Source: Methanosarcina sp. KYL-1 (lineage in GTDB: Archaea; Halobacteriota; Methanosarcinia; Methanosarcinales; Methanosarcinaceae). Taken from it: 64,000 nucleotides of DNA. This document shows, one piece after another, positions 3,341-63,272 of this stretch (position 1 is its first letter; each line of letters starts with the position of its first letter). The stretch is taken from the NCBI RefSeq assembly GCF_024372725.1, contig NZ_VOUA01000004.1:62001-126000 (forward strand), read 5' to 3'. Position numbers and translations under genes: made by a program. The notes below the pieces were generated by a model. It did no database searches. It was not told where the DNA came from and saw only the letters and a program-made list of their open reading frames with translations.

Positions 3341-3443
3341 GGATACTCTGAGATTCCCAGAACAGCAATATGACTAAATCTCACTATAAGCCAGGATTAA
3401 TAGGAGAATTTTTTGAAAGAAGTATGAAAAGCCGGTTTGAAAA

Positions 3444-3466: not shown

Positions 3467-3550
3467 AGATATTTATCAGATTTCTTCCCTTAAACCGGGT
3501 TCCGGAAAATTTTCAAGCTCCAGTCCGGGAACTCAAAAACTGCCGAAAAC

Positions 3551-34267: not shown

Positions 34268-34268
34268 C

Positions 34269-35608: not shown

Positions 35609-35611
35609 TTA

Positions 35612-45950: not shown

Positions 45951-47924
45951 TTACTCCTTCTTTTTCTTTGTAGCCACCCATAACATGATTATAAGTACAA
46001 ACCCAATGATGAAACTGGCTGCCTTAAGCATATTCTTTATCCAGGAAGACTCTTTTACTTCAGAAGGGACGGCTCCTGCTTCTTCAACAGCTGAATCCCC
46101 TGACGCAAGTCCTCCTGTTTTATCCTGGATTGCCGTTTCCGGGTCCTTTTCAGGGGTTATTTCTACGGGATCAGTTATTTTCCGGGCAGCTATGGAAAAT
46201 GGAGAAAACCCGGGAGTTTCGGCTTCAAAATATAGGTAGCTGCTGTCCTCGCCCACCTGCCGGGTAGTAAGCCGGGTCCATTTTCCTTCATTAAACCTTT
46301 CCATAGCTACTGAGCCGACTTCAATGCCGTTTTCGGTGAGCCATTCTTTCCTGACCCTGAACCCTATGACTGCATTTTCGATATTTTTGGAGCTTGCGGT
46401 CCCTTCATTTCCTACCCATATATTCATATTCTCATAAATTTCCCCTTCGGGCAGTTCCGGGACAAGTGTGGACTTTCCCCTTAGCATCTCGACTATGGTG
46501 GTGACCTTTCCTAAAGTTCTCTTCGGGTCAAAATCCACATAATCAACACAGGTCACGTTCATCGGGAATATGAATTTCACGTGGTTGCCGCTGGCAATAT
46601 ACTGCTGAGAAAGTTCCCTGGCCCTTACGTTACTGGCAGGCTCGGGAGAACCTCCTCCACCACCTCCGCCGCCTCCGCTTGAGGAACCTCCTCCACCGCC
46701 TCCGCCGCTTCCGCCACCACCCGTCTTCTTTTCGAGGATTTCCAGGTCCTTCTGGTCAAAGGCAACAAGCCCCTTTTCGGGCTGGTATGCCCCGGAAAGC
46801 AGGACGTAGTCTCCTGGTGGAAGGTCTTCGGTTGTAAGGGAAAACGCACTCTGGTTACCTATTATAATGCTCCCGTTCCCTTCTCCTATAATCTTAGGGA
46901 TTTTTTCCTGGAGTTCATTTCTATTCAGTTTGGAATTGTAGTTCGAGGAATTAATCCCAAATTCTCCGATCATTTCTATACCGTTTATGAAGAGGTCGGT
47001 CCCGTTCCATGTACCGTTGGATTCAAGCCTTATGTCAGCTCTGTATGCGCTTTCTTCAATCAGCAAAGCTCCGTAAGTATACTCTGCTTCTCCGGCTGAA
47101 TCCTCCAGTTCCATGCACACTTCCAGGTCATTTCCTTCTTCAAGGCTTGAGGGAGCTGAGACGTTGACTGTGTAATCCACGACTTCAAAGGCTGTCGCAG
47201 AAAGAACTTTTATGTTTCCGGAATTGCTTCCGTTAAGCAGGATAACTATTCCGTGAAGGCCTGCACTTTGCTTTCCGAGGTTCAGGGCCGAAAAATCCCC
47301 TGAGGCGTTCAGGGTCACTGTATTAATTTTTTCATGAGAATTGGTAATATTGTCAAAAAAGGCATTGCAGCTGGCAAGTTCCCCATTTATCAGGTAATCA
47401 ATTCCGTTTTCAAGTGAACCGGAGCTTGCATTGGCCAGATAAATGTCGACCTTCTCGTTCTTGAAGGTATCAGCACCTTTAAATTCCACACAGACTTCAT
47501 CGTTGACCGTGTAAATTTTGTGGGTGGAGTATGGATAGCTCAGGAAGTAATCGCTGTAATTGTTCACATTAAGGTAGAGGTCGGCACCTCCGTACCTCAT
47601 GTGGTTTACCCCGTTATATGTGAACGTAAGTTCCGGGATTTTGACTTGTTTTCCTCCACAGAAGACGACCCAGTTTCCTTCGGTAGGGCTGCTGCTGTGG
47701 TCCGCAAACCACAGGTACTCTCCGCCGTCTTCCATTCTGGCGATGTATGTATCGTCCGGGAAGGTTCCTCCAAGAGCAGGGGCTGTGATGCTCAAGCTCA
47801 ACACTATAAATGCCAATAATATTCCTGGTTTATTTTTCAGATCCCATTCCCCCGCGAGTTTTCTCATTCCTGTTCTTATCTGGCAGAAAGATAGGTGATT
47901 CTGTATTTTTTCCATTTTCTCCAT
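45951..47924 (-). CDS. PGF-pre-PGF surface protein, cassette A
   Basis: Anchored extracellular protein of about 640-657 residues. A signal helix (PGILLAFIVLSLSITAPALGG) starts near residue 33; several in-frame ATGs precede it, so the exact start is unclear. Residues 55-400 form the lineage-specific domain I associate with TIGR04279 (GEYLWFADH, EGNWVVF near the start; PPGDYVLLSGAYQPEKGL and LVAFDQKDLEIL near the end). A run of Gly/Ser repeats links to a PGF-pre-PGF domain (ARELSQQYIASGNHVKF ... FEAETPGFSPFSIA), then an acidic linker and a C-terminal helix with KKKKE. The homolog at 54826 has the same domains in the same order. The companion gene lies 48 nt upstream. Confidence 0.85.
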   Translation of the reverse strand: MEKMEKIQNHLSFCQIRTGMRKLAGEWDLKNKPGILLAFIVLSLSITAPALGGTFPDDTYIARMEDGGEYLWFADHSSSPTEGNWVVFCGGKQVKIPELTFTYNGVNHMRYGGADLYLNVNNYSDYFLSYPYSTHKIYTVNDEVCVEFKGADTFKNEKVDIYLANASSGSLENGIDYLINGELASCNAFFDNITNSHEKINTVTLNASGDFSALNLGKQSAGLHGIVILLNGSNSGNIKVLSATAFEVVDYTVNVSAPSSLEEGNDLEVCMELEDSAGEAEYTYGALLIEESAYRADIRLESNGTWNGTDLFINGIEMIGEFGINSSNYNSKLNRNELQEKIPKIIGEGNGSIIIGNQSAFSLTTEDLPPGDYVLLSGAYQPEKGLVAFDQKDLEILEKKTGGGGSGGGGGGGSSSGGGGGGGGGSPEPASNVRARELSQQYIASGNHVKFIFPMNVTCVDYVDFDPKRTLGKVTTIVEMLRGKSTLVPELPEGEIYENMNIWVGNEGTASSKNIENAVIGFRVRKEWLTENGIEVGSVAMERFNEGKWTRLTTRQVGEDSSYLYFEAETPGFSPFSIAARKITDPVEITPEKDPETAIQDKTGGLASGDSAVEEAGAVPSEVKESSWIKNMLKAASFIIGFVLIIMLWVATKKKKE

Positions 47925-47972
47925 TCTTTTCTCGTATGCAATTCAGGTTTGCAGTGAACTGGTCCAGCAAAA

Positions 47973-48860
47973 TTATTCCTCTCCATCGTTTCTTTTTTTC
48001 CTGGAGGTTGTCAGAAGAAACACCGCACCTGTTAGACTTCCTGCAAACAAATATAATAAGTTAATAGCGAATTCACCCATCCAGGAACTTTCGCTCTCCG
48101 GGGTGAACTCTTTTGAAGTAATCTCAGAATTTTCGTTTTGGGCTATGTTCTCGCGCTGTTCAGAAATGCTCTGTACACTTGAGATGCTTATACCCTCGTT
48201 TTCTTCAGGCAGGGTTTGAACCTGCTGGACGGTTTCGCTCCCATCCGGGCTTAAAATAATTTTCTTCTCCGAACCTTTAATTTCCACTTCAAAGTTCTCT
48301 GCAGGGACCGATTCCGTATTGTAGGTGTAGCTGAATGCTCCATCAGGGCCTGCTTTCAGTTTTTGAAGAGAGATAATTTTCAGTTTCACGCCCGAAACTC
48401 CCTTTTTTGCTTTGCCGTCTATCAGGACATGGTATTCTCCGGGAGGGGCTCCTGTATGGGACACGCTGGCGGTCCCACCGCTTGCCCAGGCACTTTCTGT
48501 TATCCAGAGGACATTTTTCATTTTAACTTTCAGGTTCTCTACTTCTTCTGCCCTGACAGTAAAAAGGCTTTCAAAATTCAGGATCTCGACATCGTTAAGT
48601 TCGTAACTGTATTCCCCGACGTAGACCGGAACTGTCTTTTCAAATGAGATGGAAATTTCTACTTCTTCTCCCGGAGCAGCAGTTCCCCTTACCTTAAAGG
48701 CTTCTCCTGCCTCAGGGTTTTCAGGGATGATGTCCCATTTGCTCACTTCTGCAGCAGCAGGAAGGGCCGTCATCCCGATTAACATGATCAGGATTATAAA
48801 AAGCAGGCAGCCTGACGCTGTCCCCCCTATCCAGTGTTGTTTGGGCGCCTTAGCTTTCAT
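47973..48860 (-). CDS. Ig-like companion surface protein, cassette A
   Basis: Exported protein of 295 residues: N-terminal helix (LLFIILIMLIGMTALPAAA), a beta-rich extracellular region of two Ig-like units, a Gln/Glu/Ser-rich spacer and a C-terminal helix with a basic tail (TTSRKKRND). Landmarks are WDIIPENPEAGEAFKVRG, SFEKTVPVYVGEYSYEL, KNVLWITESAWASGG, VSHTGAPPGEYHVLIDGKA and FSYTYNTESVPA. Homologs are at 52641 and 56742. It is the first gene of a likely two-gene operon with the PGF-pre-PGF protein. A GGGAG ribosome binding site is present. Confidence 0.78.
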   Translation of the reverse strand: MKAKAPKQHWIGGTASGCLLFIILIMLIGMTALPAAAEVSKWDIIPENPEAGEAFKVRGTAAPGEEVEISISFEKTVPVYVGEYSYELNDVEILNFESLFTVRAEEVENLKVKMKNVLWITESAWASGGTASVSHTGAPPGEYHVLIDGKAKKGVSGVKLKIISLQKLKAGPDGAFSYTYNTESVPAENFEVEIKGSEKKIILSPDGSETVQQVQTLPEENEGISISSVQSISEQRENIAQNENSEITSKEFTPESESSWMGEFAINLLYLFAGSLTGAVFLLTTSRKKRNDGEE

Positions 48861-49363
48861 AAAATCTTCTCCCGCATCTTCTTTTTTTTCTTCTTAAGTT
48901 TATTTATGTTGCATTTTTCCAGGTTTTTAAATCTTCAGTTTTTCTTGATTCAAAGTACTTATACTTTTCATTTTTTTCAAGGACATTCTTCTCAAAATTT
49001 GCTATAAGTTTTGTCTATCTAAAGCCTGTAAGTTAGCTGCTTTATGATTTTAAGAGCTTTATTAGAGAAGTTTTTCTAGAATTTTCTCTGGAAACATATA
49101 TAATAATTTCTTTAAAATATATACGATTATTTTTTAATGTATTTTACATCAATTAAACTATTTTGATTTTAATTAATTAAACTGTTTTAATTTTACATCA
49201 ATTAAACTATTTTGATTTTAATTAATCTATTTTATGTAATTCTTAAACTAACCTTTTATAAGACCAGGCAATCAGAAGTTTACGATTCTTGCCCGTCTCT
49301 TCTTTGGAATTTAATGGGAGGTCTATCTTTCACTTAAGGTTTTTTTATTTAGTTGCCTTTTAT
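48861..49363. other. AT-rich gap with a 37-bp direct repeat
   Basis: About 500 bp. ATTTTACATCAATTAAACTA and the following 17 bp occur twice, at 49141-49177 and 49190-49226, 49 bp apart. No gene is seen. In cassette B the matching gap holds the 86-residue membrane protein gene, which is absent here. Confidence 0.6.
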
Positions 49364-50269
49364 TCAATAGAGTCCTATTAAGGGGCTCAGATGGGGAATT
49401 ATCCCGAACAGGAACACATTTAAAGAACCGTGAATCAGTGTGATGAGGAAGATACTCCTTGTTCTGCGATATATGTCTCCAATGAAAATCCCCACAAAGA
49501 AAGCATACGCAATTTCGTAAGGGCTTCCGTACCCTGAGTGCATGACCCCGAAAAGAAGGCTTGCAAAGAAGATGCCTCCTGCAGATCCAAAAAACTCTTC
49601 CAGCCTTGTCTGGAGGATTGACCTGAAGATGAGCTCCTCTATCAGGGCTACGAAGAAGACCATTACGATTATAAGTTGCAGAAGGTTTACGATGGAGAGG
49701 TCCGGGATAAGGGGCTCTGTCCGGATGAATGAGTACTCTCCTGCCCCCAGGAGTAAGCCTGCAAGGAGGGAAAAGGGAAGATAAATCCATATATTTTTGA
49801 GAGTCCTCTCCTTTTTTTCATAGGTGATTCCCTGGTGTATGAAAGCCATTGTTGCAGGAATTGCCAGAGGGGCATAAACGAATATAAAACAATACAGGGA
49901 GGCGTCGAAAAAGATGGGCATTGAAAGGTTGACCAGGCGGAGGATGGGGAGGAGCATAAAAGCCTGGTAGAGTTTTTTCATTTCCCTGTCTTTTGTGGCC
50001 GTGATGATGAAAGAAAAGCCCAGAAGGAGGAGGGTATGCGCAAGCACGGTTTCTTTTGTCCTTCCTTCGTAGAGCAGCAGTTCTATAAAAACAATCGCAA
50101 TTATGGGAGCAACTACAAAGGGAAGCGTTCTAAGTAGATTGGTTTTTTCTTCTTTGAATTCGGTTTTTTCTTCATTATGCGTTTCAAGTTCCTTTTTCAG
50201 TCCCAGTAGAGAGGAGTAATCTTTCTCCAGTTCTTCAGGGCTGCCTGTAAATTCCGAACTTTCCATCAT
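49364..50269 (-). CDS. CPBP-family intramembrane metalloprotease, cassette A
   Basis: Integral membrane protein of 301 residues with about eight helices. The CPBP (CAAX-protease-like) motifs are intact: VALIEELIFRSILQTRLEE (EExxxR), FGVMHSGYG (FxxxH) and LIHGSLNVFLFG (HxxxN). Family members process or remodel membrane proteins. It starts at an ATG overlapping the DUF1616 stop, so both are made together. It is closely similar to the protein at 58849. A role with the surface proteins next to it is inferred from conserved gene order. Confidence 0.87.
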   Translation of the reverse strand: MMESSEFTGSPEELEKDYSSLLGLKKELETHNEEKTEFKEEKTNLLRTLPFVVAPIIAIVFIELLLYEGRTKETVLAHTLLLLGFSFIITATKDREMKKLYQAFMLLPILRLVNLSMPIFFDASLYCFIFVYAPLAIPATMAFIHQGITYEKKERTLKNIWIYLPFSLLAGLLLGAGEYSFIRTEPLIPDLSIVNLLQLIIVMVFFVALIEELIFRSILQTRLEEFFGSAGGIFFASLLFGVMHSGYGSPYEIAYAFFVGIFIGDIYRRTRSIFLITLIHGSLNVFLFGIIPHLSPLIGLY

Positions 50270-51174
50270 CAGGCCTCCTCTGCTGTTTCATTCACGTTTA
50301 TCCAGAGCCGGAGGTCCCTGTTAGGCACTTCCTTTTCACTTTCGTTGAAGAGTAAAAACTCGAGGCTCATGTCCTTACCTTCGAAAGGTGGAGTGATGGT
50401 AAGAGGCTCTTCCCAGGTCATGTTGTGGTCCAGGCTTACATGCCGCATGTTTTCCGGGAGGGGCAGGGACCTGTTCTCAAGCCTGACCTCCAGGTTGTAA
50501 TTAACGGTCCTGTACTCGTGGTTTACTATCCCGATGATAACAGTCCCGCTCTCTCCTAGCGTGTAGCGTGTAGGATAGTTGGTCGCCATGCCCTCGGGCC
50601 CCAGGATGTAGAACTCCGTGAAGTGCTCCCCTTCCTTCGGGACCACGGTTACGTAGACAAGGGCCACAACCGAGGCAAGGATGGAGAGAACCAGGATGAT
50701 TGTGAGAATTCTGTCGGTTTTCGATTCTGGTTTTTCCAGTACTTCGGCCTTAAGGGCCAGGAAAGAAACTTTGAGGGGAACAGAAAAGACCTCCCCCTCT
50801 GGCAGCTGGCTTCTCCTGATGTATGCCGCAACGCACATTACGAGGATAAATATGGAAAGACTCAGGAGGATTGGAATTTCCCTTATTCCCCAGAGGGTGT
50901 AGTTGAGCGCAAGTCCTATCAGGGACACCACCGCAATGCTCATTCCGAAGGAGAGTGCAACTCTCTCAATTCCGTCCAAATCTTTTTTTGCGGGAAAAAG
51001 GGCTGCAATCAGGGCATACCCCGGAAGGAAGAGCGCAATTGGAAGGCCCAGGGCTGTCCGGATAAAACTGGCGCCTAGAGGCGGTGTTAGCACGAAGATA
51101 TCCGTAAGGATAACAAGACCCGCAACTAACATCAGGTCCGAGGGAAATTGTCTGTTTCCGGCCATTTTTACCAC
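50269..51174 (-). CDS. DUF1616 membrane protein, cassette A
   Basis: Protein of 301 residues. Four N-terminal helices carry the DUF1616 signature PGYALIAALFPAKKDLDGIERVALSFG (quoted in two overlapping parts: PGYALIAALFPAKKD and LDGIERVALSFG). A basic loop, a fifth helix (LTIILVLSILASVVALVYV) and an outward beta domain (FTEFYILGPEG, SGTVIIGIVNHEYRTVNY, ENRSLPLPENMRHV) follow. It is translationally coupled to the CPBP gene and closely similar to the protein at 59766. DUF1616 genes often sit near surface polysaccharide or sorting genes, but the role is unknown. Confidence 0.85.
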   Translation of the reverse strand: MVKMAGNRQFPSDLMLVAGLVILTDIFVLTPPLGASFIRTALGLPIALFLPGYALIAALFPAKKDLDGIERVALSFGMSIAVVSLIGLALNYTLWGIREIPILLSLSIFILVMCVAAYIRRSQLPEGEVFSVPLKVSFLALKAEVLEKPESKTDRILTIILVLSILASVVALVYVTVVPKEGEHFTEFYILGPEGMATNYPTRYTLGESGTVIIGIVNHEYRTVNYNLEVRLENRSLPLPENMRHVSLDHNMTWEEPLTITPPFEGKDMSLEFLLFNESEKEVPNRDLRLWINVNETAEEA

Positions 51175-51622
51175 TTGTGGTAATTTTTTACATTTTCGTT
51201 TCTGAATCCATTTTTTCTGAATCCACCAGTCAACTCTGCCGTTTTTCTTTTTCCCGGACTCCGGTTGATTCCGCTTTATTCGTTCCGATAATCCGGATTT
51301 TCAGGAAAAACATGGGAAAAAAAGTATTAGTTTCCGGAACCCTTTATCGTACCTATCGTATCCGGATGCCGAAATCTGGGATAAGCTTCGCTCCCCTTTT
51401 CCGGATTCTCTCCTGCTGAAAAGTCCCCTGGAATTTCCCCAAGTTTTTTAGCTCCCCTTACCCATATTGTCTCATTCTATGAAATATTTTTCGGCATTTT
51501 TTAGTTGCCCTCCTAGAACCCTGGAACATTTTTATGGATTTTGAGCAATATCTCCGATATAACCCTTGATTTCCGGACTTGCATGGAAAATCTTATTTTG
51601 TGTTTTCCCTTTCTCTTGAAAC
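51175..51622. other. Intergenic region
   Basis: About 450 bp between divergent genes, with promoters expected on both sides. Nothing else is recognised. Confidence 0.4.
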
Positions 51623-52519
51623 ATGAAAGTGCTGGTTACAGGCGGAGCAGGTTTTATAGGCTCACACATAGCTGAGTATTTTGCAAAAGCCGGAAACACA
51701 GTCCGGATTCTGGATAACTTAGCCACGGGTTTCCCTGGGAACATTCCTCTGCATGAAAACATCGAGTTTATTAAAGGGGACATCTGCGACCCTTCTCTTG
51801 TTTCAAAAGCTGTTTTTGGCATGGACTGCGTCTTCCATGAAGGGGCTCTTGTGTCCGTTCCGCTTAGCTGCGAAAAACCGGTTGAGGCGTTCCGGATTAA
51901 CACTCTTGGGACCCTGAACGTGTTGCAGGCCTGTGTGGAATCCGGGGTCGAGAAGTTCGTGACTGCATCTTCTGCTGCGGTTTACGGGAACAACCCGGTC
52001 CTTCCGAAAAGGGAAGACATGTACCCTGAGCCAGCTTCTCCCTATGCGATTTCCAAACTGGACGGGGAGTTTCTGGCAAGGATGTTTTACGAGGAGCACG
52101 GGCTCCGGACCACCTGCCTGCGTTATTTCAATGTCTACGGGCCCCGCCAGGACCCAAAGTCCCCCTATGCTGCAGTGATCCCGATCTTTTTTGAGCGGGC
52201 AAAAGCCGGAAAGGACCTGGTTGTCTATGGAGACGGGCTTCAGAGCCGGGACTTCGTGCACGTAAGAGATGTTGTCAGGGCAAACGCTGCGGCCCTGGAA
52301 CACGGGGACGGAGAGGTCTTTAACGTGGCAATGGGCAAGAGCGTTACAGTCCTGGAACTTGCGGAAACCATCCTTGAGCTCACAGGCTCTTCGAGCAAGA
52401 TCGTCCATGCCGGGCAGAGGGCAGGTGACGTCCGGGATTCCCGGGCTGATGTCTCAAAAATTTCCGGGTGGTGGAGAGGAGAGGTCGAACTCAGGGACGG
52501 GTTAAAGGACCTGCTTTAA
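51623..52519 (+). CDS. NAD-dependent sugar-nucleotide epimerase (UDP-glucose 4-epimerase-like)
   Basis: Extended short-chain dehydrogenase of 298 residues. The NAD site TGGAGFIGSH is at residues 7-16, DNLATGFPGN near 32, SSAAVYG near 115 and the catalytic YAISK near 142. RYFNVYGPRQDP near 170 and QSRDFVHVRDVV near 210 complete the pattern of GalE-like UDP-sugar epimerases. It most likely interconverts UDP-glucose and UDP-galactose, or their N-acetyl forms, for surface glycans; the substrate is not certain. It lies between the two envelope cassettes and near a glycosyltransferase, which supports a glycan role. No ribosome binding site is visible. Confidence 0.88.
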   Translation: MKVLVTGGAGFIGSHIAEYFAKAGNTVRILDNLATGFPGNIPLHENIEFIKGDICDPSLVSKAVFGMDCVFHEGALVSVPLSCEKPVEAFRINTLGTLNVLQACVESGVEKFVTASSAAVYGNNPVLPKREDMYPEPASPYAISKLDGEFLARMFYEEHGLRTTCLRYFNVYGPRQDPKSPYAAVIPIFFERAKAGKDLVVYGDGLQSRDFVHVRDVVRANAAALEHGDGEVFNVAMGKSVTVLELAETILELTGSSSKIVHAGQRAGDVRDSRADVSKISGWWRGEVELRDGLKDLL

Positions 52520-52562
52520 ACAATTGAGGTTTTACCGTTAAAGATTAAAAAGAGAATAAGAA

Positions 52563-52596
52563 GGCAGGCTGCTTTTCAAGCAGGCATCCGCCTTTT
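52563..52596. terminator. Hairpin between convergent genes
   Basis: CTGCTT-ttc-AAGCAG forms a 6-bp stem within GGCAGG...CCGCC flanks, followed by CTTTTATCC. It may end the epimerase transcript. Confidence 0.4.
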
Positions 52597-52640
52597 ATCC
52601 GGTTCACCTAACAGGCAGGTCCTATTTTTCAAAAATGTTT

Positions 52641-53561
52641 TTATTTCCTTGATTTCCGGAAGAGGGATATCACGAGGAGGCTTGCTATAATTCCGAAGAC
52701 CATGAAGCTTCCATTAAGGGCAGGCTCTTCTTCCTCAGGTGTTTTGTCCTGGGTTTCGGATCCTGTATTTTCTGCCTCGTCAGCTCCCTGATCGGGAGTT
52801 ATTGTTATTGCTCCTGAAGATCCGTCTTCATCTCCCTCTTCTTCGCTCTCATTCTCCGTTACTTCCGGAGCTTCTTCTTCGGGCTCGGCAGGTCTGATAG
52901 TTGCAGACCCTGTGCCAGAGCCTCCTCCGGAGGAAGAACTTCTTTCCCTGAGGGTTATGGTTTTTGAATCCCCGCCAATGCTTATTTCGTAATCCCCTGC
53001 AGGCATTGAGTCGGTGTCGTATTCATACCTGAAGTTCCCTTCGGAGTCGGCGGTTATGGTCTGGGACGCCGTTATCGTCAGGTTTACACTGGATTCCCCT
53101 TCCTGGGCGTTCCCGTATATCTTGACCTCATAGGTCAGGGGGGGGACATTTGAGTGGGAGACTGTGCCAACGCCTTCGTTTACATTCCCGTTGAGTGTGA
53201 TCCATATCAGTTTTTTCACTGCGACCTGCAGGCTCTGCACGGGCTCGGCTTCTACGGTAAAGCAGTTTTCTTCCCCTGAAGGGATTTTAACTTCAGCTAG
53301 CCTGTAAGAGTATGCCCCATCGGATACTGATGCGGTTTTTTCAAACGAGACGTCTGCCCGGAGCCCTACGTTGGGGTCGGTGGTCCCTGTTATAACAAGC
53401 GTATCTCCTACATAGGGGCTTGAGGGGGAGACTTCCCATTCCGCGGCCGGGACGGCAAGCGCGGGGGAAACGATCATTAAGGCCAGAAACAGCCCTAAAA
53501 GGGTGGCTGCAAAACCCGGCAGCTTGTTTTGCCTGTAATGAGTACCAATGTCTTTTTTCAC
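52641..53561 (-). CDS. Ig-like companion surface protein, unpaired copy
   Basis: Protein of 306 residues in the same family as those at 47973 and 56742: signal helix (LLGLFLALMIVSPALAVPAA), two Ig-like units (WEVSPSSPYVGDTLVITG, SFEKTASVSDGAYSYRL, VSHSNVPPLTYEVKIYG, YEYDTDSMPAGDYEISIGG), a long acidic spacer, and a C-terminal helix ending in RKSRK. It starts at GTG with a GGAG site 7 nt before. Unlike its relatives it has no PGF-pre-PGF gene downstream, so it may partner with proteins made elsewhere. Confidence 0.75.
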   Translation of the reverse strand: MKKDIGTHYRQNKLPGFAATLLGLFLALMIVSPALAVPAAEWEVSPSSPYVGDTLVITGTTDPNVGLRADVSFEKTASVSDGAYSYRLAEVKIPSGEENCFTVEAEPVQSLQVAVKKLIWITLNGNVNEGVGTVSHSNVPPLTYEVKIYGNAQEGESSVNLTITASQTITADSEGNFRYEYDTDSMPAGDYEISIGGDSKTITLRERSSSSGGGSGTGSATIRPAEPEEEAPEVTENESEEEGDEDGSSGAITITPDQGADEAENTGSETQDKTPEEEEPALNGSFMVFGIIASLLVISLFRKSRK

Positions 53562-54007
53562 AGAAATAACTCCTTTAAGTTCTATATCTGAAATTTATGA
53601 TTATGTAAAAGAATTCTTGTGGAACACTGTTTGACTTTATTTTTTATAAAGTTTTGGTGAATATTACACCACACCTATAATAAAGTTTTGTTGATAGTCT
53701 TTTGCAGAAATGTTTACAGTTGCCGGATAAAAGGATACTTTTTTGCTTCGGTTTCTTTACTTTTTCATAAACATTAATTTACGGGTCCTTAAAACCAAAA
53801 CTTATTCTATTTTTTCATTGCGACTTATTAAGGTGTTAATTCCGGACATTTATGTAAATTTTTTATATCTATGTGGCTTTACTTTCTTTGTTAATATATT
53901 AAAAGGCTGTTTGTTCTAATAATATACATAAGTTTTTTATAGGATTTGATAGATTTACAATTAGTTATTTTATAAAGTAAGGTGGACATTATCAATTTAT
54001 CATTTAT
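53562..54007. other. AT-rich intergenic region
   Basis: About 445 bp between divergent genes, very AT-rich with several TATA-like boxes, including TTTTATAAAGTAAGG near 53968, a probable promoter for the small membrane protein at 54026. No gene is seen. Confidence 0.45.
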
Positions 54008-54025
54008 TTGCAGGAGGTATCCTTT

Positions 54026-54286
54026 ATACTCTTAAGTATAATTTCAAGTGCGATCTCATCAAGTGCTATTTCCTCAAGCGCCATTTCAATGGTTACAAGC
54101 CCGGGCCTCCCCCAGTACGGGGCTGCAGTAGTAGTGGGGCTCATAGCTCTCCTCTCTTTAAAAGAGGTCCTGTCAGCGTCTGAAAAATGGAACAAATCCC
54201 TGAATAATTCTTTTAACCTGGCAATCCTTCCTTTGCTTGTTTGTTTTGCAGCGATTGTCTTATTTAAGATTTCCGCGATCCTCTGA
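54026..54286 (+). CDS. Small two-helix membrane protein, copy 1 (ATA start proposed)
   Basis: Membrane protein of about 86 residues: a Ser/Ile repeat (IISSAISSSAISSSAIS) at the N-terminus, a first helix (YGAAVVVGLIALLSL), a short polar loop (KEVLSASEKWNKSLNN) and a second helix (LAILPLLVCFAAIVLFKI). The frame is open from a TTG at 54008, but AGGAGGT (54012-54018) lies inside that extension. The codon 8 nt after this strong site is ATA (54026), which I take as the start; the TTG has no site of its own. A second copy at 58067 keeps the same sequence around the site. The function is unknown. Confidence 0.62.
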   Translation: MLLSIISSAISSSAISSSAISMVTSPGLPQYGAAVVVGLIALLSLKEVLSASEKWNKSLNNSFNLAILPLLVCFAAIVLFKISAIL

Positions 54287-54825
54287 TTCCGGATCCCGGA
54301 ACTCAATTTAATTCCTTTTACTCCTTTTACTCCTTTTGGTACCTCTGGTTCATTTTTCGGTTTTACCCGTATCTTCTGCCCCCGGGCCGCTTTCTCAGTT
54401 TCATCTTTTTTTCAAAGGAAGCCCGCTCCATGTCCTGATGGGGTCCTGATGAAAAACATTTATAAGTCCGGGGCAACTCAATAAAATTTCGGATAAATTT
54501 AATAGCTCTCCTAATACTTGCGGTTTTTAATATATGGCCCCCCACCAGAAAATAACGCGGCCCGAAATCCTACATTATGGTCCTTACAACCGGAATTCAG
54601 TTAGTCTTACGTCCGTTTATATCGGCCGATTGGTCCTGGGCTGCTGGCAGGTTTATTACTCCTAAATAAAAGAGATCCGGATGCTTTTTGGTTTATCAAT
54701 TTCTTCTTATCCGGAAGCCTGAACAACATGGACAAACCGGCAAGCCTTTTTTAAAAATGGGATTTAAACAGAAGACATGAAGCCTTCTGTTTTTTTATTT
54801 TTTCAGGTTCATGACTCTTTCTGGT
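54287..54825. other. Intergenic region
   Basis: About 540 bp with short CTTTTACTC repeats near 54315 (possible T-rich termination) and AT-rich boxes near 54470-54540. No gene is seen. Confidence 0.4.
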
Positions 54826-56667
54826 TTATGGCTCTTTTTTCTTCTTCAGGGTCAATGTCATCATGATTACTATCATGACCCCTACAAAGAAGCTTATGAA
54901 TTTTGAAATGACTGTTGTTAGCTTTCCTCCGGTGGTTTCAGGCTCCTGGCTTGCTCCTGGTTCCTGATTCGTTTCTATGGACATTATTTCTTTTTCTCCA
55001 CTTTTTGCCTCAATCACTATTGTTTTCTTTCTTGATGTGATTGCAAATGGGGAGAATCCCGGGGTTTCGGCTTCGAAGTAAATGTATTCCTCGTCTTCAC
55101 TGACTTTTACAGTCGGTAGTGGATTCCACTGATTCTCGCTGAAATGCTGAAGAACTATTGAGTCCTCACCAATTTTGTTTTCAGTTATCCAGGCCCTGCT
55201 CACTCTGAAGCCCACAATGGGATTTTCAATGTTTTCCGGAGTGGGGAACCCTTCGTTTCCAACCCAGATGTTCAGGTAGCTGTAGATTTCTCCTTCAGGT
55301 TTGGTGGGAGTCAGGGAAGATTTTCCCTTCAGTTCTTCAATGATAGCTGTGATCTTTCCGGCAGTCTTTCTGGCGTCAAATTCCACATAACCGACTGAGG
55401 AGCCTTCCCTTGTAAACTCAAACCTCACACGGTGCCCGTTTGAAACAAACTGCTGGGCCAGTTCTTTTGCCTTAACGTTACTTGCAGGTTCGGGGGACCC
55501 GCTTCCTCCTCCTCCTGACCCTGAGCTGCCGCTTCCTTTGCCCTTATTTCCTTTATTTAAGATCTCCAGTTCTTTCTGGTCAAGGGCAATAAGTCCCCTC
55601 CCTGGCTGGTATACGCCGGCAAGCAGGAAGTAGTCCCCTGGTGGAAGGTCAAAGGTAGTAAGTGAAAGTGAATTCTGGCCGGCTTCCCCTATAGATATGG
55701 TGCCTTTTCCCTCTCCTATCATTGTCTGGATATCTGTCTGGAGTTCGTTTTTGGTCAGCTTTGACCTGTAGTTGGAAGAATTTATGTCAAATTCTTCAAT
55801 AATGTCAATTTCGTTTACTATGACGGAAGTTCCGGACTTTGTGCCGTCGGAATCGATTTCAATGTTGGCTTTATAGGCACTGTCCCTTATCAGCACTGCT
55901 CCATAGGTGCAGTTGTCATTTCCGGATGCTCCCGGCATCTCCAGGACTATGCCAAGGTCATTGCCTTTCACGATGTTTTCCGGGGCTGTGACATCCAGTT
56001 CGTATTCCACAACCACAAAAGCAGTTGCTGAAAGGGCTGTAAGGCTATTGTCCCCGTTTTTCTGGAGCAGCACTATGCAGTACTGCCCGGCTTCCAGGGG
56101 GCCGAAGTCATAGTCTAAAAGGTCTCCGTTTCCGTCCAGGTCAGCCGAGAACATTTCATAGTTCCCGTCCATGTTGTCGTGGAAAAGGGCACTTAAATTG
56201 CCGATGTTCTCGCCTGCCATGAGGGCATCAATAAGCCCGTATGCAGAATCGCAGGTAATTTTGAAGAGGTAGATGTCCACATCCCCTGTCAGCCCCGACT
56301 CCCCGAGGAAGCTCATGGTCACGTTTTCATCAGGCAAATATACGGGATGGGTGGTATAGGGATAGCTTATCGTATACTCTTCATCTTCGTCTTTATTCAG
56401 GGTTGCGGAAACTCCGCCGTATTCTCTGGACTTCGGGCCGTCATATGTGAACTTTATAGGGTCGGGGAGTTGAATCCTCCTTACATCCGCAGGGCTTCCC
56501 AGGCTTATCCAGTTTCCTTCCTCCGGGTCATCGGTATGGTCCAGGAAGTAAACATCCGTGTCGTTAAATGTCAGGTTGGCAATGGGTCCTGAATTCTTTG
56601 CCATTGCTGTTGAAGAGGTTATAATGAAGAAGATTAATGCTAACAATATCAACATACCCTTTCTCAA
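54826..56667 (-). CDS. PGF-pre-PGF surface protein, cassette B
   Basis: Anchored extracellular protein of 613 residues, homologous along its length to that at 45951: signal helix (LILLALIFFIITSSTAMA), the TIGR04279-like domain (YFLDHTDDPEEGNWI near 45; PPGDYFLLAGVYQPGRGL near 355), a Gly/Ser linker shorter than in cassette A, a PGF-pre-PGF domain (FEAETPGFSPFAIT), a spacer and a C-terminal helix. The start is TTG at 56667 with a GGAGG site 8 nt before it. It follows its companion gene by 74 nt. The repeated pair supports one functional unit. Confidence 0.85.
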   Translation of the reverse strand: MRKGMLILLALIFFIITSSTAMAKNSGPIANLTFNDTDVYFLDHTDDPEEGNWISLGSPADVRRIQLPDPIKFTYDGPKSREYGGVSATLNKDEDEEYTISYPYTTHPVYLPDENVTMSFLGESGLTGDVDIYLFKITCDSAYGLIDALMAGENIGNLSALFHDNMDGNYEMFSADLDGNGDLLDYDFGPLEAGQYCIVLLQKNGDNSLTALSATAFVVVEYELDVTAPENIVKGNDLGIVLEMPGASGNDNCTYGAVLIRDSAYKANIEIDSDGTKSGTSVIVNEIDIIEEFDINSSNYRSKLTKNELQTDIQTMIGEGKGTISIGEAGQNSLSLTTFDLPPGDYFLLAGVYQPGRGLIALDQKELEILNKGNKGKGSGSSGSGGGGSGSPEPASNVKAKELAQQFVSNGHRVRFEFTREGSSVGYVEFDARKTAGKITAIIEELKGKSSLTPTKPEGEIYSYLNIWVGNEGFPTPENIENPIVGFRVSRAWITENKIGEDSIVLQHFSENQWNPLPTVKVSEDEEYIYFEAETPGFSPFAITSRKKTIVIEAKSGEKEIMSIETNQEPGASQEPETTGGKLTTVISKFISFFVGVMIVIMMTLTLKKKKEP

Positions 56668-56741
56668 ATTGTATGCCTCCAGTTATTCCTGTTACTTTTC
56701 CGGGTTGCCGGTTCCCGGAATTCCTGTCCCCCGGGGGATAT

Positions 56742-57662
56742 TCAAGGGATTCTCTTTTTCCCATTTCTTCTTGAATTTATAATCAGAGCAAGAACCGATG
56801 CCCCGATTCCTCCCAGCACATAGGTGTTATCCAGCAGGAATTCTTTTTTCAGGGAAGTTTCGGGTATTGGGGTTTCATCTCCTGTAACCTTCGTTTTCGA
56901 GTTTTCGTCCTCCTCGTTTTCTTCGTGGACTGTTTCCCTCTCCCGGGTTTCTTTCAGGGCTTCGGGAGGTTCCATCTCAGGTTCCGGTTCCGGGACAGGT
57001 GTGATCTGGGGTTCCGGGGGGGCGGGAGGTATGACCTGCACAGATTCGGGGTTGAGGGTAATTGTTTTTGTGCTGTCGCCCACTTTTATTTCAAAGTCTC
57101 CCGGAGGGACGGCTTTTGTGTTATAGGAGTAGATAAAGTCCCCTTCAGAGTCAGCTTTTATCTGCTGGCGGGCTGTAATTTTCAGTTCGACAGTTGAGGC
57201 TCCGCTTTTCGCGTTCCCGTCAATCTTTATCTTGTAGGTTCCTGGCGGGACCCCGGACTGGGAGACTGTTGCGGTGCTCCCCGAGGCCCCTGAGCTTTTC
57301 GTTATCCAGACTACCATTTTCACCCTTACGTTCAGGTTTTCTGCGCTGGTAGCCCGGACAGTAAAGCTGTTATCAAAACCTCCCGGGATATTTACGTCTT
57401 CTAAGATGTACTCGTACTTTCCCCCGGATACCGGGACTATTTTTTCAAAAGTTACAGTCACATCTATTTCCTCTTCCGGGAACGCACTTCCCTTTATCCT
57501 GAGGGTGTCACCTACAATCGGTTTCTGGGGGGAGGTTTCCCAATCATTGACTGATGCACCCGCAGGAAAAATAGCAAGTAAAAAAAAGGCCAGGAATGAT
57601 ACGGTAGCTATCAAACCAGCAGCTTTTTTCAGTCTTCTATGGGAATTCGCATCTTTTTTCAT
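56742..57662 (-). CDS. Ig-like companion surface protein, cassette B
   Basis: Protein of about 306 residues homologous to those at 47973 and 52641: signal helix (LIATVSFLAFFLLAIFPAGA), Ig-like units (WETSPQKPIVGDTLRIKG, TFEKIVPVSGGKYEY, VVWITKSSGASGS, SQSGVPPGTYKIKIDG), a Pro/Glu-rich spacer (PPAPPEPQITPVPEPEPE) and a C-terminal helix with a basic tail. The ATG at 57662 is chosen because the family starts there; a 24-residue upstream extension is not conserved. It heads the operon with the PGF-pre-PGF gene. Confidence 0.77.
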   Translation of the reverse strand: MKKDANSHRRLKKAAGLIATVSFLAFFLLAIFPAGASVNDWETSPQKPIVGDTLRIKGSAFPEEEIDVTVTFEKIVPVSGGKYEYILEDVNIPGGFDNSFTVRATSAENLNVRVKMVVWITKSSGASGSTATVSQSGVPPGTYKIKIDGNAKSGASTVELKITARQQIKADSEGDFIYSYNTKAVPPGDFEIKVGDSTKTITLNPESVQVIPPAPPEPQITPVPEPEPEMEPPEALKETRERETVHEENEEDENSKTKVTGDETPIPETSLKKEFLLDNTYVLGGIGASVLALIINSRRNGKKRIP

Positions 57663-58066
57663 GTAATTACTCTTTTCAGGTCCGGGTCTGATTTTTATAC
57701 GTATAAATGTAAAAATTTTGTACCATATATTCAATCAATAATTTATAATGTTAAAGGCTCTTTATAGAGGTTTTTATGGTATTTGACTACCTACTACATA
57801 TGAAAAAATAAAGTTTTATTAAAAATTTTATCTTTTACTGATATAATGAATACTCCAATTATACATATTTAAAATTTCCTTGCTAATTTAAGAAGATGCT
57901 TATTAATATCTTTTTTTAAGGTAATTTCTAAATTTACTGCTTACTTTATTAATTTATTCTATATATTAATCGTATATCATGTGGCAGAACTCTTTTATAG
58001 GATGGAGATGTAGTACCTCACATATTAAATTTATTTCTTCGTAGTCATTTGCAGGAGGTATCCTTT
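57663..58066. other. AT-rich intergenic region
   Basis: About 400 bp, very AT-rich, with promoters for the leftward companion gene and the rightward small membrane gene (ATATTAATCGTATATC near 57961). No gene is seen. Confidence 0.4.
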
Positions 58067-58327
58067 ATACTCTTAAGTATAATTTCAAGTGCGATCTCAT
58101 CAAGCGCTATTTCCTCAAGCGCCATTTCAATGGTTACAAGCCCGGGCCTCCCCCAGTACGGGGCTGCAGTAGTAGTGGGGCTCATAGCTCTACTCTCTTT
58201 AAAAGAGGTCCTGTCCGCATCCGACAAATGGAACAAATCCCTGAATAATTCTTTTAACCTGGCAATCATGCCTCTGCTTGTTTGTTTTGCAGCGATTGTC
58301 TTATTTAAGATTGTCGCGATCCTCTGA
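58067..58327 (+). CDS. Small two-helix membrane protein, copy 2 (ATA start proposed)
   Basis: Near-identical copy of the gene at 54026 (86 residues; differences in a few residues near the C-terminus). The nucleotide match starts a few bases before the AGGAGGT site and ends near the stop, so the duplicated block is about 290 bp. The same ATA lies 8 nt after the site. Retention of this layout in both copies supports it as a real start. It lies between the cassette B surface pair and the protease/DUF1616 pair. The function is unknown. Confidence 0.62.
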   Translation: MLLSIISSAISSSAISSSAISMVTSPGLPQYGAAVVVGLIALLSLKEVLSASDKWNKSLNNSFNLAIMPLLVCFAAIVLFKIVAIL

Positions 58328-58848
58328 TTCCTGATCCCGACAACCATTTAGTTATTTTTTAACTTTTTCTCTTTTTTAGCTCTTCTCTTCTTTTGACTTT
58401 TTCTCTTTTTTAACTCTTCTCTTTTTTTAACTCTTTATCTTTTCTTCATTTCTTCTGCTTTCCAAACCAGATCTTTTCTTTTTATCTTTTCTTCTTCTCC
58501 ACTCTCTTTATGCGTTCACCGATCCTTTTTCTATCCTGCCGCTTTTTCAGGGGGATACGGAGAGAATGGAGGAGGGGAGATGATTGATAGATGGGCATGG
58601 AGGTGAATACAGGAAATTAATAGGATAGAGGACAGAGGGGAATAGAGGAAAGAGATAGATCGAAGGATACGGAGTGAAGAATAGGGGAAGGAGATGGTGG
58701 ATTGTGGAGCAAGGAGAGACGAATATGAAGGAAGAATAGGAGATAGGGGAAGAAGATGGTGGATTGAGGAGCAAGGAGGAGAGAATAGGAAGAAAGATAG
58801 TGGAAAGGAGAATTCTGGGATTGAAAGAGACGTTCCGGGCAGAATAAA
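58328..58848. other. Pyrimidine tract then purine tract with direct repeat
   Basis: About 520 bp. From 58360 to 58515 the plus strand is mostly pyrimidine (repeats of CTTTTTCTCTTTTTTA and similar). From 58550 to 58830 it is mostly purine (GGA- and GAA-rich). ATAGGGGAAGGAGATGGTGG and its following 17 bp recur about 62 bp later (58681 and 58743) with few changes. No gene is seen. Confidence 0.6.
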
Positions 58849-59769
58849 TTAGAGGTGGCCAGCTGCCATACTCAGGTGGGGTATGATCCCGAAGAGGAAG
58901 ACGTTTACGAAGCCGTGAAGGGTGACAACAAACGGGAGGCTCCTGGTTTTCTGGAAGGCAAAGCCCATGAAAAGCCCTACAAAGCCGGTATAGAGGATTT
59001 CGTAGAAAGTGCCGTATCCGGAGTGCATGAGCCCGAAAAGGAGGCTTGCGATAATCATTCCTTCCCGCATTCCCAGCACCTCCTCGAGCCGCGTCTGGAG
59101 GATCGACCTGAAGATGACCTCCTCGATCAGGCCCACGAAAAAGATCATTATGAAGGTGAGTTTGAGGACGTTTTCCAGAGAGAGGTCCGGGATCAGGTAG
59201 CCTGTCCGGATGGTCGCATATTCCCCAAGCCCGAGCAGGAAGCCCAGGGGGACTGAGAGGAGCAGGTAGAGTCCTAATTTTTCGGAAGTGACCCCCATCT
59301 GTTTGAGGGTGGGCTGCTGGCTCATTGCCACAATCGCTGCCGGAACTGCCAGGGGGCCGTAGATGAAGATGAAGGTATAGAGTGTTGTCTCAAAAAAGAC
59401 CGGCATCGAAAGGTTGACCAGGCGGAGGATGGGGAGCAGCATAAGGGCCTGGTAGATCTGGTTGACGCCCCGGGTTTTTATGGACATGGAAGAGAGAGAT
59501 AGGGCTATCAGGGTCGCGATGTGCAGCCAGACCGCAGCTCCCATTTTTCCGGAGTAGATCAGGAGCTCGGCCAGGGCGATGCTGAGGACGGGAATGCCGG
59601 TAAGAAGGGCAAGCCTCCTGAACTCGGGTGTGTCTTTTTTCCAGCCCCCTTCTCGCGCTTCCTTTTTTTCAGGGAGGTCAGGGTTTTTTCCGGGGTTTCC
59701 GGGATTTCCTGCTTTTCCGGGCTTCCTTAGCTCCCTGAGCGCCCTGAGGGGCGGAAAATCCTCTTTCAT
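58849..59769 (-). CDS. CPBP-family intramembrane metalloprotease, cassette B
   Basis: Protein of 306 residues closely similar to that at 49364, with the same motifs (GLIEEVIFRSILQTRLEE, FGLMHSGYG, LHGFVNVFLFG). It differs in the N-terminal cytoplasmic part, which here has a Gly/Pro/Lys-rich run (GKAGNPGNPGKNP). The ATG overlaps the DUF1616 stop by 4 nt. Helices and active-site residues are conserved, so both copies are likely active. Confidence 0.87.
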   Translation of the reverse strand: MKEDFPPLRALRELRKPGKAGNPGNPGKNPDLPEKKEAREGGWKKDTPEFRRLALLTGIPVLSIALAELLIYSGKMGAAVWLHIATLIALSLSSMSIKTRGVNQIYQALMLLPILRLVNLSMPVFFETTLYTFIFIYGPLAVPAAIVAMSQQPTLKQMGVTSEKLGLYLLLSVPLGFLLGLGEYATIRTGYLIPDLSLENVLKLTFIMIFFVGLIEEVIFRSILQTRLEEVLGMREGMIIASLLFGLMHSGYGTFYEILYTGFVGLFMGFAFQKTRSLPFVVTLHGFVNVFLFGIIPHLSMAAGHL

Positions 59770-60725
59770 GCTCCTGCAGCCTCCGCGGCTTTTGCTTCTC
59801 CTGCTGCCCTTACGGCTTCTACTGTCCTTACTGCCTCTGCAGTCCCTGTTGAGTTTACGTCTATCCAGAGGTGCAGGTCCCTGTAGGGTACGGTTTTTTC
59901 CGTGTCGTTGTAAAGCAGGAATTCGAGTTTCATGTCCTTTCCCTCAAATGGGGGGGTAATGGTGAGGGGCTTTTCCCAGGTCACGTTGTGGGCCAGGCTT
60001 ACGTGGCGCAGCTTTTCCGGAAGGGGCAGGGACCTGTTCTCAAGCCTGACCTCCAGGCTGTAGTTAACCGTCCTGTACTCGTGGTTTACGACCCCTATGA
60101 TAACAGTCCCGCTTTCCCCGGGCATGTAGTGCGTTGGGTAGTTGTCCGCTTTTCCCTGGGGCCCCAGGATGTAGAACTCCGTGAAATGCTCTCCCTCTTT
60201 CGGGGTCACGATCACGTAGACTAGGGTTACGACCGAGAGCAGGATGGAGAAGATGAGGATGATTGTAAGCGCCCTGTCGAGCTTTGATTCCGGCTTTTCC
60301 AGGAGCTCGGCTCTCAGGGCCAGGGCCCCTTCCCTGAAAGGCACCTCAAAAGCCCCGGCTGCAGGCAGCTGCTGTCTCCTGTAGTACGCAAGCCCGCACA
60401 TCAGGAGAGTGAATGCCGAGAGGCTGATGAGGATGGGGAGTGGCCTTATCCCCCAGGGCGTGTAGTTGAGCCCAAGCCCGATCAGGGGCACGACCGCTAT
60501 GCTAAGCCCGAAGGAGAGCGCAACCCGTTCTATCCCGTCCAGGTCTTTTTTTGCGGGAAAGAGGGCCGCAATCAGGGCATACCCCGGCAAGAAGAGCACC
60601 ATGGGCAGCCCGAGCACGGTCCGCAGGAAGGTCTCGTTGAGCCCCGGCATGAGCACGAAGATGTCCGTGAGGAGCACAAGGCCCGTTACAAGTGAGAGGT
60701 CAGAAGAAACTTTTTTTCCGGTCAT
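59766..60725 (-). CDS. DUF1616 membrane protein, cassette B
   Basis: Protein of 319 residues closely similar to that at 50269: four N-terminal helices with PGYALIAALFPAKKD, a fifth helix, and the outward beta domain (FTEFYILGPQG, SGTVIIGVVNHEYRTVNY). The C-terminus has an extra Ala/Glu-rich tail (AVRTVEAVRAAGEAKAAE) absent from the other copy. It heads the two-gene operon with the CPBP gene. Confidence 0.85.
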   Translation of the reverse strand: MTGKKVSSDLSLVTGLVLLTDIFVLMPGLNETFLRTVLGLPMVLFLPGYALIAALFPAKKDLDGIERVALSFGLSIAVVPLIGLGLNYTPWGIRPLPILISLSAFTLLMCGLAYYRRQQLPAAGAFEVPFREGALALRAELLEKPESKLDRALTIILIFSILLSVVTLVYVIVTPKEGEHFTEFYILGPQGKADNYPTHYMPGESGTVIIGVVNHEYRTVNYSLEVRLENRSLPLPEKLRHVSLAHNVTWEKPLTITPPFEGKDMKLEFLLYNDTEKTVPYRDLHLWIDVNSTGTAEAVRTVEAVRAAGEAKAAEAAGA

Positions 60726-61685: not shown

Positions 61686-63272
61686 ATGAATACCGAATTG
61701 CTTCTGGATGCCGGTTCCCTGTGCACCGCACTCGAGGACCCCTCTCGCGTAAGGGAGATTGCTCCCCAGAACATAACCGTAATCCTTCCTGCTTATAATG
61801 AAGAGGTTTCAATCGGCAGTGTGGTTCTGCGAGCGAGAAAGTTTTCTGATAGAGTTATTGTGGTTGACGATGCCAGTTCTGACCACACTGTAGAAGTTGC
61901 TGAAATGGCAGGTGCCAGAGTTGTACGTAACCCCGTAACCAGAGGAAAGGAGATTTCCTTAAAAAAAGGAATTGAAGCTGCAGATGATTCGGATTTCATC
62001 GTAACAATGGAAACCGGCGTCTGCCATGATCCCGGTCTGATCCCAAGAATGATTGCTCCGCTTAGAGATGGGGATTTTGATCTTGCTGTAGGTACCTGTT
62101 TTAGCAAGCAAAGAAAAGGTTCCGAGAATGTCTTCCTCATCAACAACAAGGAATCCGAGAGCAAGCCAGTGGGTTTCATGGCCTTTTCAAGGGAGTGTCT
62201 CTCGAAAATCAACTTTTCTCATGTTTATCTGTCTTCCATTCACTCTATCATGACTTCAGCTGAGGAAGCCAACCTGAGAATCTTGCATATTGACATTCAG
62301 GAAGAGCACGAATCATCCCTTTTCAGGGCCTACAAAATAGGAGTCGTGGTCCCTGCATACAACGAAGAGAACCTTATCCAGGAGACAATTGACGGCATCC
62401 CTGCCTACGTGGACAAGATCTACGTCATAAATGACTGCAGCACGGACCGCACAGCTGAGATCATTAACAGCACGACCGACCCCCGCGTAGTTCCCATCCA
62501 CCACGAGGTCAACAAAGGCGTAGGTGCAGCCATCATAAACGGATACAAACGTGCCCTTGCCGACAGGATGGACCTGGTCGCAGTCATGGCCGGGGACAAT
62601 CAGATGGACCCCACCCAGCTCCCCAAACTCATCATGCCCATTATCGAGGGCAAAGCCGACTACACCAAAGGCAACCGCCTCCTCTCCCGGGAAATGCGCA
62701 CCGGGATGCCAGCCTGGCGTGCCTTCGGAAACGGCCTCCTCTCCCTTATCACAAAAATAGGTAGCGGCTACTGGCACATCGCCGACCCCCAGAACGGCTA
62801 CACCGTAATCTCAGGCCATGCCTTAGAAACCCTCGACCTTGACTCAATTTACACTTACTATGGCTATTGCAACGACATGCTCATAAAAATGAACGCTTTC
62901 GGGATGCGCGTAGTCGACGTCACAATGCCTGCCCGTTACGGCACCGAGAAGTCCAAAATAAGGTACGGCAAGTACATCCGCAAAGTCGCTCCCATGATCT
63001 TCAGGGGTTTCTTATGGCGGCTCAAGATGAAGTACATGGTCCTTGACTTTCATCCCCTCGTGCTGTTTTACATTGCAAGCATGGTGCTTGTCCCCCTGGG
63101 CTTCCTCTTCGGAGTATGGATCGTCCTGCAGAAAGTTGTGTTCCACGGTCCGGTTTCAGCGAATTATCCCCTGCTGGACGTGTTCATTTCGCTGATGGGT
63201 ATCCAGTTGCTGTTTTTTGCGATGTTCTTCGACATGCAGGTTAACAATAGCACAGATGTAAGGGCTGTTTGA
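61686..63272 (+). CDS. Membrane-anchored double GT2 glycosyltransferase
   Basis: Protein of 528 residues with two GT2-type nucleotide-sugar transferase domains in tandem. Domain 1 (about 30-190) has VILPAYNEEVSIGSVV and VIVVDDASSDHTVE but METG instead of a clear DxD, so it may be inactive. Domain 2 (about 215-440) has VVVPAYNEENLIQETI, YVINDCSTDRTAEI, a DNQMDP metal site and QNGYTVISG, so it looks active. Two C-terminal helices (LVLFYIASMVLVPLGFLFG and LLDVFISLMGIQLLFFAMFF) anchor it. Its likely role is polyprenyl-phosphate sugar transfer for surface glycans or N-glycosylation. It precedes a formyltransferase-like gene. Confidence 0.87.
   Translation: MNTELLLDAGSLCTALEDPSRVREIAPQNITVILPAYNEEVSIGSVVLRARKFSDRVIVVDDASSDHTVEVAEMAGARVVRNPVTRGKEISLKKGIEAADDSDFIVTMETGVCHDPGLIPRMIAPLRDGDFDLAVGTCFSKQRKGSENVFLINNKESESKPVGFMAFSRECLSKINFSHVYLSSIHSIMTSAEEANLRILHIDIQEEHESSLFRAYKIGVVVPAYNEENLIQETIDGIPAYVDKIYVINDCSTDRTAEIINSTTDPRVVPIHHEVNKGVGAAIINGYKRALADRMDLVAVMAGDNQMDPTQLPKLIMPIIEGKADYTKGNRLLSREMRTGMPAWRAFGNGLLSLITKIGSGYWHIADPQNGYTVISGHALETLDLDSIYTYYGYCNDMLIKMNAFGMRVVDVTMPARYGTEKSKIRYGKYIRKVAPMIFRGFLWRLKMKYMVLDFHPLVLFYIASMVLVPLGFLFGVWIVLQKVVFHGPVSANYPLLDVFISLMGIQLLFFAMFFDMQVNNSTDVRAV

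Follow-up and report, generated by a model that had tools for sequence, protein, structure and literature searches.

A recurring DUF1616-CPBP gene neighbourhood of the Methanosarcinales as a candidate module for surface-protein maturation

In a stretch of 64,000 nucleotides of the Methanosarcina sp. KYL-1 genome (bases 62001-126000 of contig C4, hereafter the window) two gene blocks were detected, A (45951-51174) and B (54826-60725), both located on the minus strand and both reading, in the order of transcription, a DUF1616 membrane protein (D), a CPBP protease (C), an immunoglobulin-like (Ig-like) companion (I) and a surface protein of the TIGR04279/PGF-pre-PGF type (T). A sequence-only reading of the window had described them as a duplicated envelope cassette. 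Comparison with related genomes shows that this observation is real and broader than that reading saw: the gene order recurs within the genus at three loci (A, B and K), the same families occur together in other genera and families, and D, C and I were duplicated together, which makes a local accident an insufficient account of the cassette. A small protein of 92 amino acids (aa) with two transmembrane (TM) segments (s) has to be added to the set, T is its loosest member, and the steadiest partners of the CPBP gene are DUF1616 and s rather than the surface pair formed by T and I. We tentatively propose that D and C work together in the membrane as a glutamic protease unit which matures or anchors the neighbouring exported proteins, with s as an accessory. 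The genes concerned are the following.

45951-47924, minus strand: T-A, exported surface protein of 657 aa with TIGR04279 and PGF-pre-PGF domains, a C-terminal TM segment and a KKKK tail, without a PGF motif
47973-48860, minus strand: I-A, Ig-like companion of 295 aa with signal peptide, beta-sandwich, linker and C-terminal TM segment
49364-50269, minus strand: C-A, predicted CPBP (Rce1-like) glutamic intramembrane protease of 301 aa with the motifs EExxxR, FxxxH and HxxxN
50269-51174, minus strand: D-A, DUF1616 membrane protein; the start of C-A overlaps the stop codon of this gene (TGATG)
51623-52519, plus strand: NAD-dependent (UDP-sugar) epimerase, divergent from D-A, its position kept across the genus
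52641-53561, minus strand: I-C, third Ig-like companion, 306 aa, sister to the I genes adjoining C-B in genomes G088 and G089
54008-54286, plus strand: s copy 2, 92 aa, two TM segments and a Ser-rich N-terminus, its DNA 96% identical to copy 1
54826-56667, minus strand: T-B, exported surface protein of 613 aa with TIGR04279 and PGF-pre-PGF domains, belonging to the T-B clade (21 sequences)
56742-57734, minus strand: I-B, Ig-like companion, its start codon probably internal (MKKDANSH...)
58049-58327, plus strand: s copy 1, 92 aa, two TM segments, convergent with C-B
58849-59769, minus strand: C-B, predicted CPBP protease of 306 aa with intact catalytic motifs
59766-60725, minus strand: D-B, DUF1616 membrane protein with a 4-base overlap with the start of C-B (ATGA)
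61686-63272, plus strand: family 2 glycosyltransferase, divergent from D-B, its position conserved

The families of the named genes were confirmed by profile matches. T-A and T-B match the NCBIfam models TIGR04279 at 330 and 349 bits (cut-off 35) and PGF-pre-PGF at 209 and 210 bits (cut-off 28), C-A and C-B match PF02517 at 67.1 and 65.7 bits (Pfam gathering cut-off 22.4), and D-A and D-B match PF07760 (DUF1616) at 334 and 360 bits (Pfam gathering cut-off 31.6). The two ordered modules stand as the sequence-only reading gave them, each named gene being an open reading frame in its place on the minus strand, and so do the epimerase between the blocks and the translational coupling claimed for D and C, whose reading frames overlap in both blocks. 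The description of the two CPBP/DUF1616 pairs as closely similar is fair for DUF1616 only, since the products of blocks A and B share 74% identity for D, compared to 47% for C and 45% for T, and the three Ig-like companions of the window are mutually 37-43% identical. The small membrane protein of the earlier description exists, but it is encoded on the plus strand, convergent with the CPBP gene, and in two copies, neither of which belongs to block A, which has no s of its own. Missing from that description were the third Ig-like gene (52641-53561), which lies between the blocks together with the epimerase, and the near-identity of the two 92-aa two-TM genes.

The genus survey covered 31 genomes with 101 CPBP loci. 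DUF1616 was detected in all 31 genomes, this CPBP subfamily in 30 and TIGR04279 in 27, and a DUF1616 gene lies within 2 kb of the CPBP gene at 82 of the 101 loci. Locus A adjoins dapA/dapB on one side and the epimerase on the other, and locus B borders on the family 2 glycosyltransferase and continues with s, I and T. At locus K the D-C pair precedes a nucleotide-sugar gene set, which is predicted to encode a UDP-sugar dehydrogenase, a Gfo/Idh protein, a DegT aminotransferase, a hexapeptide transferase and a flippase. This set (L047:8151-16093, with equivalents in other genomes) presumably resembles the pathway of a diacetamido-uronic acid sugar, judging by Pfam matches.

The phylogenetic trees, calculated by quick search with SH-aLRT support only and with some deep forks at 81-91, separate the CPBP proteins of the loci A, B and K. 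As sequences from sister genera cluster within or next to them, the duplications leading to the three loci predate the genus. The DUF1616 proteins likewise group by locus in their tree (7 label changes compared to 52.6 for shuffled labels), and the tree of the Ig-like companions also forms A, B and K clades, of which A and K are closer together than to B, matching C and D. Since the trees of all three families split by locus, D, C and I were co-duplicated, and their topology indicates that this joint duplication preceded the origin of the genus. The co-duplication suggested for the whole cassette does not extend cleanly to T, T-A being of a different lineage. The T tree forms a B clade and a K clade, and T-A groups only with a gene (L133) located beside a B-type CPBP gene in another genus (genome G089). 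Among the Ig-like companions I-A groups with the locus-A genes of seven other genomes, and I-C with the genes beside C-B in the two genomes listed above. Judging from the trees, block A owes its T gene to later shuffling. The idea that the cassette was cleanly duplicated as a whole in this genome was rejected, as T-A and I-C come from lineages which in sister genera adjoin C-B, whereas the lineage of I-A is found beside C-A.

The order-wide survey comprised 149 genomes of Methanosarcinales from 24 genera, in which the CPBP subfamily was detected in 115 genomes and 18 genera; the loci counted represent a sample, and many of the records are draft genomes. Across the order almost all genomes possess D-C pairs. 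Of the 60 CPBP loci outside Methanosarcina, 44 have a DUF1616 gene immediately upstream in the same orientation. TIGR04279 was found in 27 of 51 genomes outside the genus, and 28 of its 37 matches there have C, D or s no more than 6 kb away, compared to at most 0.8 expected for uniform placement. The order D-C-I-s recurs in genus g10, several of the five families occur together in Methanolobus, Methanohalophilus and Methanococcoides, the ANME-3 contigs L222/L224 carry T, P+I, s, D and C, and in Methanothrix one contig (L234) holds s-C-T-I-D and others I-I-D. Because several or all of the gene families co-occur in these lineages, the neighbourhood is present in no fewer than two families of the order.

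The surveys also revealed relatives of T and I with dockerin-like tails in place of the TM anchor (L159:4493, L160:6981 and 7747, L134:4198) as well as an 819-aa open frame with a DUF1616-like region (G000:C7:118254-119195), similar frames of about 800-900 aa being found across the order.

The sequences of C-A and C-B confirm their membership in the CPBP (PF02517) glutamic protease family, proteolysis itself being predicted only. Both proteins keep E216, E217 and R221 of EExxxR, H249 of FxxxH as well as H285 and N289 of HxxxN; across 31 aligned CPBPs there is no variation at E216, E217 and R221 and hardly any at H285 and N289. The FxxxH histidine is present in both proteins of the window and in most CPBPs paired with DUF1616. 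In a CPBP lineage of the genus that mostly lacks DUF1616 and has s just downstream on the same strand it is replaced by asparagine (L087, L088, L089, L100), and catalysis was possibly lost there along with the DUF1616 partner. Profile searches against the PDB gave no relative of C at E <= 1 and nothing convincing for D. The confidently predicted structure of D (pLDDT 87.5) begins with a TM bundle at the N-terminus and continues as a beta-sandwich matching the CARDB domain of PF1109, and a fold search with D returned this CARDB/Ig domain only, the TM part being without a useful match. The model suggests that D carries an outward-facing (extracellular) CARDB-like Ig domain, which is consistent with the report, in the one open-licence paper found to mention DUF1616, that the Haloferax member HVO_2173 is an N-glycoprotein (PMC8241124).

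No description of this gene set was found in the open-licence literature. The nearest NCBIfam models for C are mostly those of myxosortase-type proteases, all below cut-off: Mrt_core (NF040914) at 30.7 and 26.6 bits (cut-off 100), MrtS at 40.7 and 38.5 bits (130) and MrtA at 23.4 bits (200). The CPBP protease MrtX has been shown to sort C-terminally anchored (MYXO-CTERM) proteins (PMC11980579), and the neighbourhood described here is similar to the myxosortase systems (MrtX, MrtJ/MrtS/MrtA; MYXO-CTERM, JDVT-CTERM, Synerg-CTERM) in that a CPBP gene is located near exported proteins with a C-terminal TM segment and a basic cluster. However, the tails in the window have neither a Cys-bearing nor another common signature motif and are not dispersed over many proteins, and a regular DUF1616 partner and a small two-TM companion are not known from myxosortase. 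Given the scores and the lack of a common tail motif, membership of C in the myxosortases was rejected. With MmRce1 and the type II CAAX proteases (PF02517) C shares the fold family and the catalytic motifs, but no CAAX substrates are encoded nearby and C is paired with DUF1616.

The T tails of the genus read roughly K-x-x-S/T-F-x-x-G-F, followed by the TM segment and Lys/Arg, and the I-B tails roughly VDxxYxLxGxGAxxLILxxYSKRK, ending at the basic cluster. These tails are conserved, with an identity of 57% in the I-B tail compared to 27% in the preceding linker and of 45% compared to 30% for T-B. The AlphaFold model of I-B (pLDDT 77) shows a beta-sandwich, a disordered linker and a C-terminal helix; a fold search with I gave no match at E <= 0.001. 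The PGF-pre-PGF domain of T and its relatives in other genera that end in PGF-CTERM recall the archaeosortase A/PGF-CTERM system. However, none of the 27 T tails of the genus contains a PGF motif, the I tails of the genus likewise lack PGF-CTERM, the CPBP protease is of a different enzyme class, and the ArtA-type archaeosortase gene (G000:C35; 261.9 bits, cut-off 75) is located on another contig, unlinked to the cassette. Processing of the window's T and I by this route was rejected, as their tails are without PGF.

We consider the neighbourhood to be an ancient, co-duplicated envelope module of the Methanosarcinales, whose coupled genes would yield a D-C membrane protease unit. In this unit C would supply the glutamic-protease active site within the membrane and D a TM platform with an outward-facing CARDB-like domain able to hold a substrate. 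The unit would act on the exported neighbours, chiefly I and also T, by cutting or reseating their C-terminal TM anchor, a constrained Gly-containing helix with a basic end, and the surface protein would thereby be set free or differently anchored, in coordination with the divergent neighbouring glycan genes. The small protein s may serve as an accessory subunit or regulator. Gene order, the joint duplication of D, C and I, the intact catalytic motifs and the conserved tails are observed, whereas the D-C complex, the cleavage, T and I as substrates and the part played by s are inferred.

Several findings weigh against this proposal or against the earlier reading. The sequence-only reading had treated the surface pair as a regular part of the cassette; T and/or I lie within about 6 kb of the CPBP gene at only 34-36 of the 101 genus loci, so that about two thirds of them are without the pair at this distance, which weakens the cassette idea by the refuting condition set in that reading. 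The genomes G001, G017, G018 and G020 keep D-C without T, the genera g10 and g11 have no T, and at locus K of several genomes a stretch of about 10 kb containing glycan genes separates C from the locus' own I and T. The earlier suggestion that the protease cuts the adjacent exported proteins found no sequence evidence: neither T and I nor the tails of different genera share a motif, the tails in the window contain no Cys, and a T-tail profile run against the whole genome hit the two cassette T proteins alone (E < 1e-9). Its next match (E 0.21) falls in an unrelated 558-aa frame, and a dispersed sorting signal was therefore rejected. Furthermore, 5 of 13 T tails outside the genus carry PGF-CTERM, some T and I proteins there have no C-terminal TM segment, and the tail conservation could reflect plain contacts between TM segments. 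A more specific version, according to which DUF1616, CPBP and s constitute a new archaeal surface-protein maturation complex, each paralogous copy serving its own I and often T, in parallel to archaeosortase and replacing the PGF-CTERM route for T in the Methanosarcina lineage, is rather doubtful.

Envelope and glycan genes might instead have been kept together merely for joint expression or use, with D-C serving glycan or S-layer assembly in general and having no enzyme-substrate tie to T and I. In line with this scenario a divergent glycosyltransferase (33) or epimerase (29) is located directly upstream of D in 62 of 72 genus cases, locus K holds its nucleotide-sugar and flippase set between C and the I and T genes, and D-C outlasts the loss of T and I. 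However, the association of D, C, I and T is much more specific than that of envelope clusters in general, as seen in the close spacing of the T genes outside the genus, it is retained in Methanothrix, and I co-duplicates with D-C. We regard this explanation as somewhat doubtful.

The s proteins measure 80-90 aa, begin with a Ser-rich stretch and contain a PGLP-like motif as well as two TM segments; the family has no Pfam match. The ratio of nonsynonymous to synonymous substitutions (dN/dS) of s against other species is about 0.05-0.09 (about 0.07). The two copies in the window are identical at 268 of 279 bases, lie in a repeat of about 293 bp at 96% that barely exceeds the open reading frame, and show a synonymous divergence of 0.1 compared to about 1.9 to other species. 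The pair, which flanks T and I, probably results from a recent local duplication or gene conversion. Frames on the minus strand at 54004-54306 and 58045-58347 were rejected as genes, since the conserved product under purifying selection is encoded on the opposite strand. Position and orientation of s are the same beside most CPBP genes of the order, that is convergent and behind C. A distant paralogue of s (about 100-119 aa, 44-56 bits) is encoded about once per genome (G003:C2:4342843, G007:C1:279675, G021:C25:156170 and others) and, if on the same contig, usually lies 11-45 kb from the D-C pair and not adjacent to a CPBP gene.

The true substrate of the CPBP protease might be s itself, cut to release a peptide or to be inactivated, with T and I as bystanders or downstream effectors. 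This would agree with the constancy of s, which adjoins the CPBP gene more often than T and I do, being found within 4 kb at 61 of the 101 genus loci and nearby, mostly convergent, at 42 of the 60 loci outside the genus. The genus has 87 strong s genes, of which 70 have a CPBP gene no farther than 5 kb away, on the opposite strand in 65 cases, and s also adjoins CPBP genes without DUF1616. The low dN/dS of s also fits, as does the precedent of MroQ-type CPBP proteins, which are suspected to process peptides, as cited in PMC7387801. On the other hand, the CPBP genes of locus A have no s of their own, s is convergent and not co-transcribed at most loci, and the lone CPBP proteins with a co-directional s have lost the FxxxH histidine, which points to a role as subunit or scaffold. 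Taken as the protease's substrate, s seems an unlikely candidate.

CPBP enzymes of Staphylococcus aureus have a role in lipoprotein N-acylation and possibly in the processing of autoinducing peptide (AIP), and LnsB (lipoprotein N-acylation) and SpdC act without proteolysis, their key residues being lost (PMC7387801). LnsAB and the staphylococcal Spd proteins resemble the D-C pair in combining a CPBP membrane protein with a partner acting on surface proteins or lipoproteins, but the partner here is DUF1616 and not NlpC/P60. That C is likewise a non-proteolytic membrane scaffold, chaperone or transferase partner which helps D and s to insert or modify surface proteins could be supported by these precedents and by the histidine lost in the lone-CPBP lineage, but it is very unlikely given the catalytic residues conserved across the 31 aligned proteins, and the assignment of the window CPBPs to the LnsB-type class was rejected as they keep the residues lost there.

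Elsewhere in the window, the gene at 5347-6891 (plus strand) encodes a further PGF-pre-PGF protein, whose tail is PGF-like but degenerate (GPGTVFAAAG...), and lies beside three paralogous genes of 496-500 aa at 85-5053, and four consecutive genes at 33536-36226 (minus strand), apparently tandem paralogues, have an LMGWCP motif in common. The gene at 14369-15484 (plus strand) belongs to a family of 371-379 aa which by eye resembles TnpB. This TnpB-like family recurs near cassette loci in several genomes (L052:13913, L053:12488, L075:1962, L100:4162) and may help to shuffle those loci.

To our knowledge, the maturation of surface glycoproteins in Methanosarcina and its relatives is almost unstudied beyond archaeosortase, and we know of few prokaryotic CPBP proteases that have been characterised. 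The conserved and co-duplicated protease, its partner and the candidate substrates provide named genes for the study of surface-protein maturation in these archaea. If the proposed function is true, they would represent the second CPBP pathway for surface proteins after myxosortase and would give a context to DUF1616 and to the previously unnamed small protein s.

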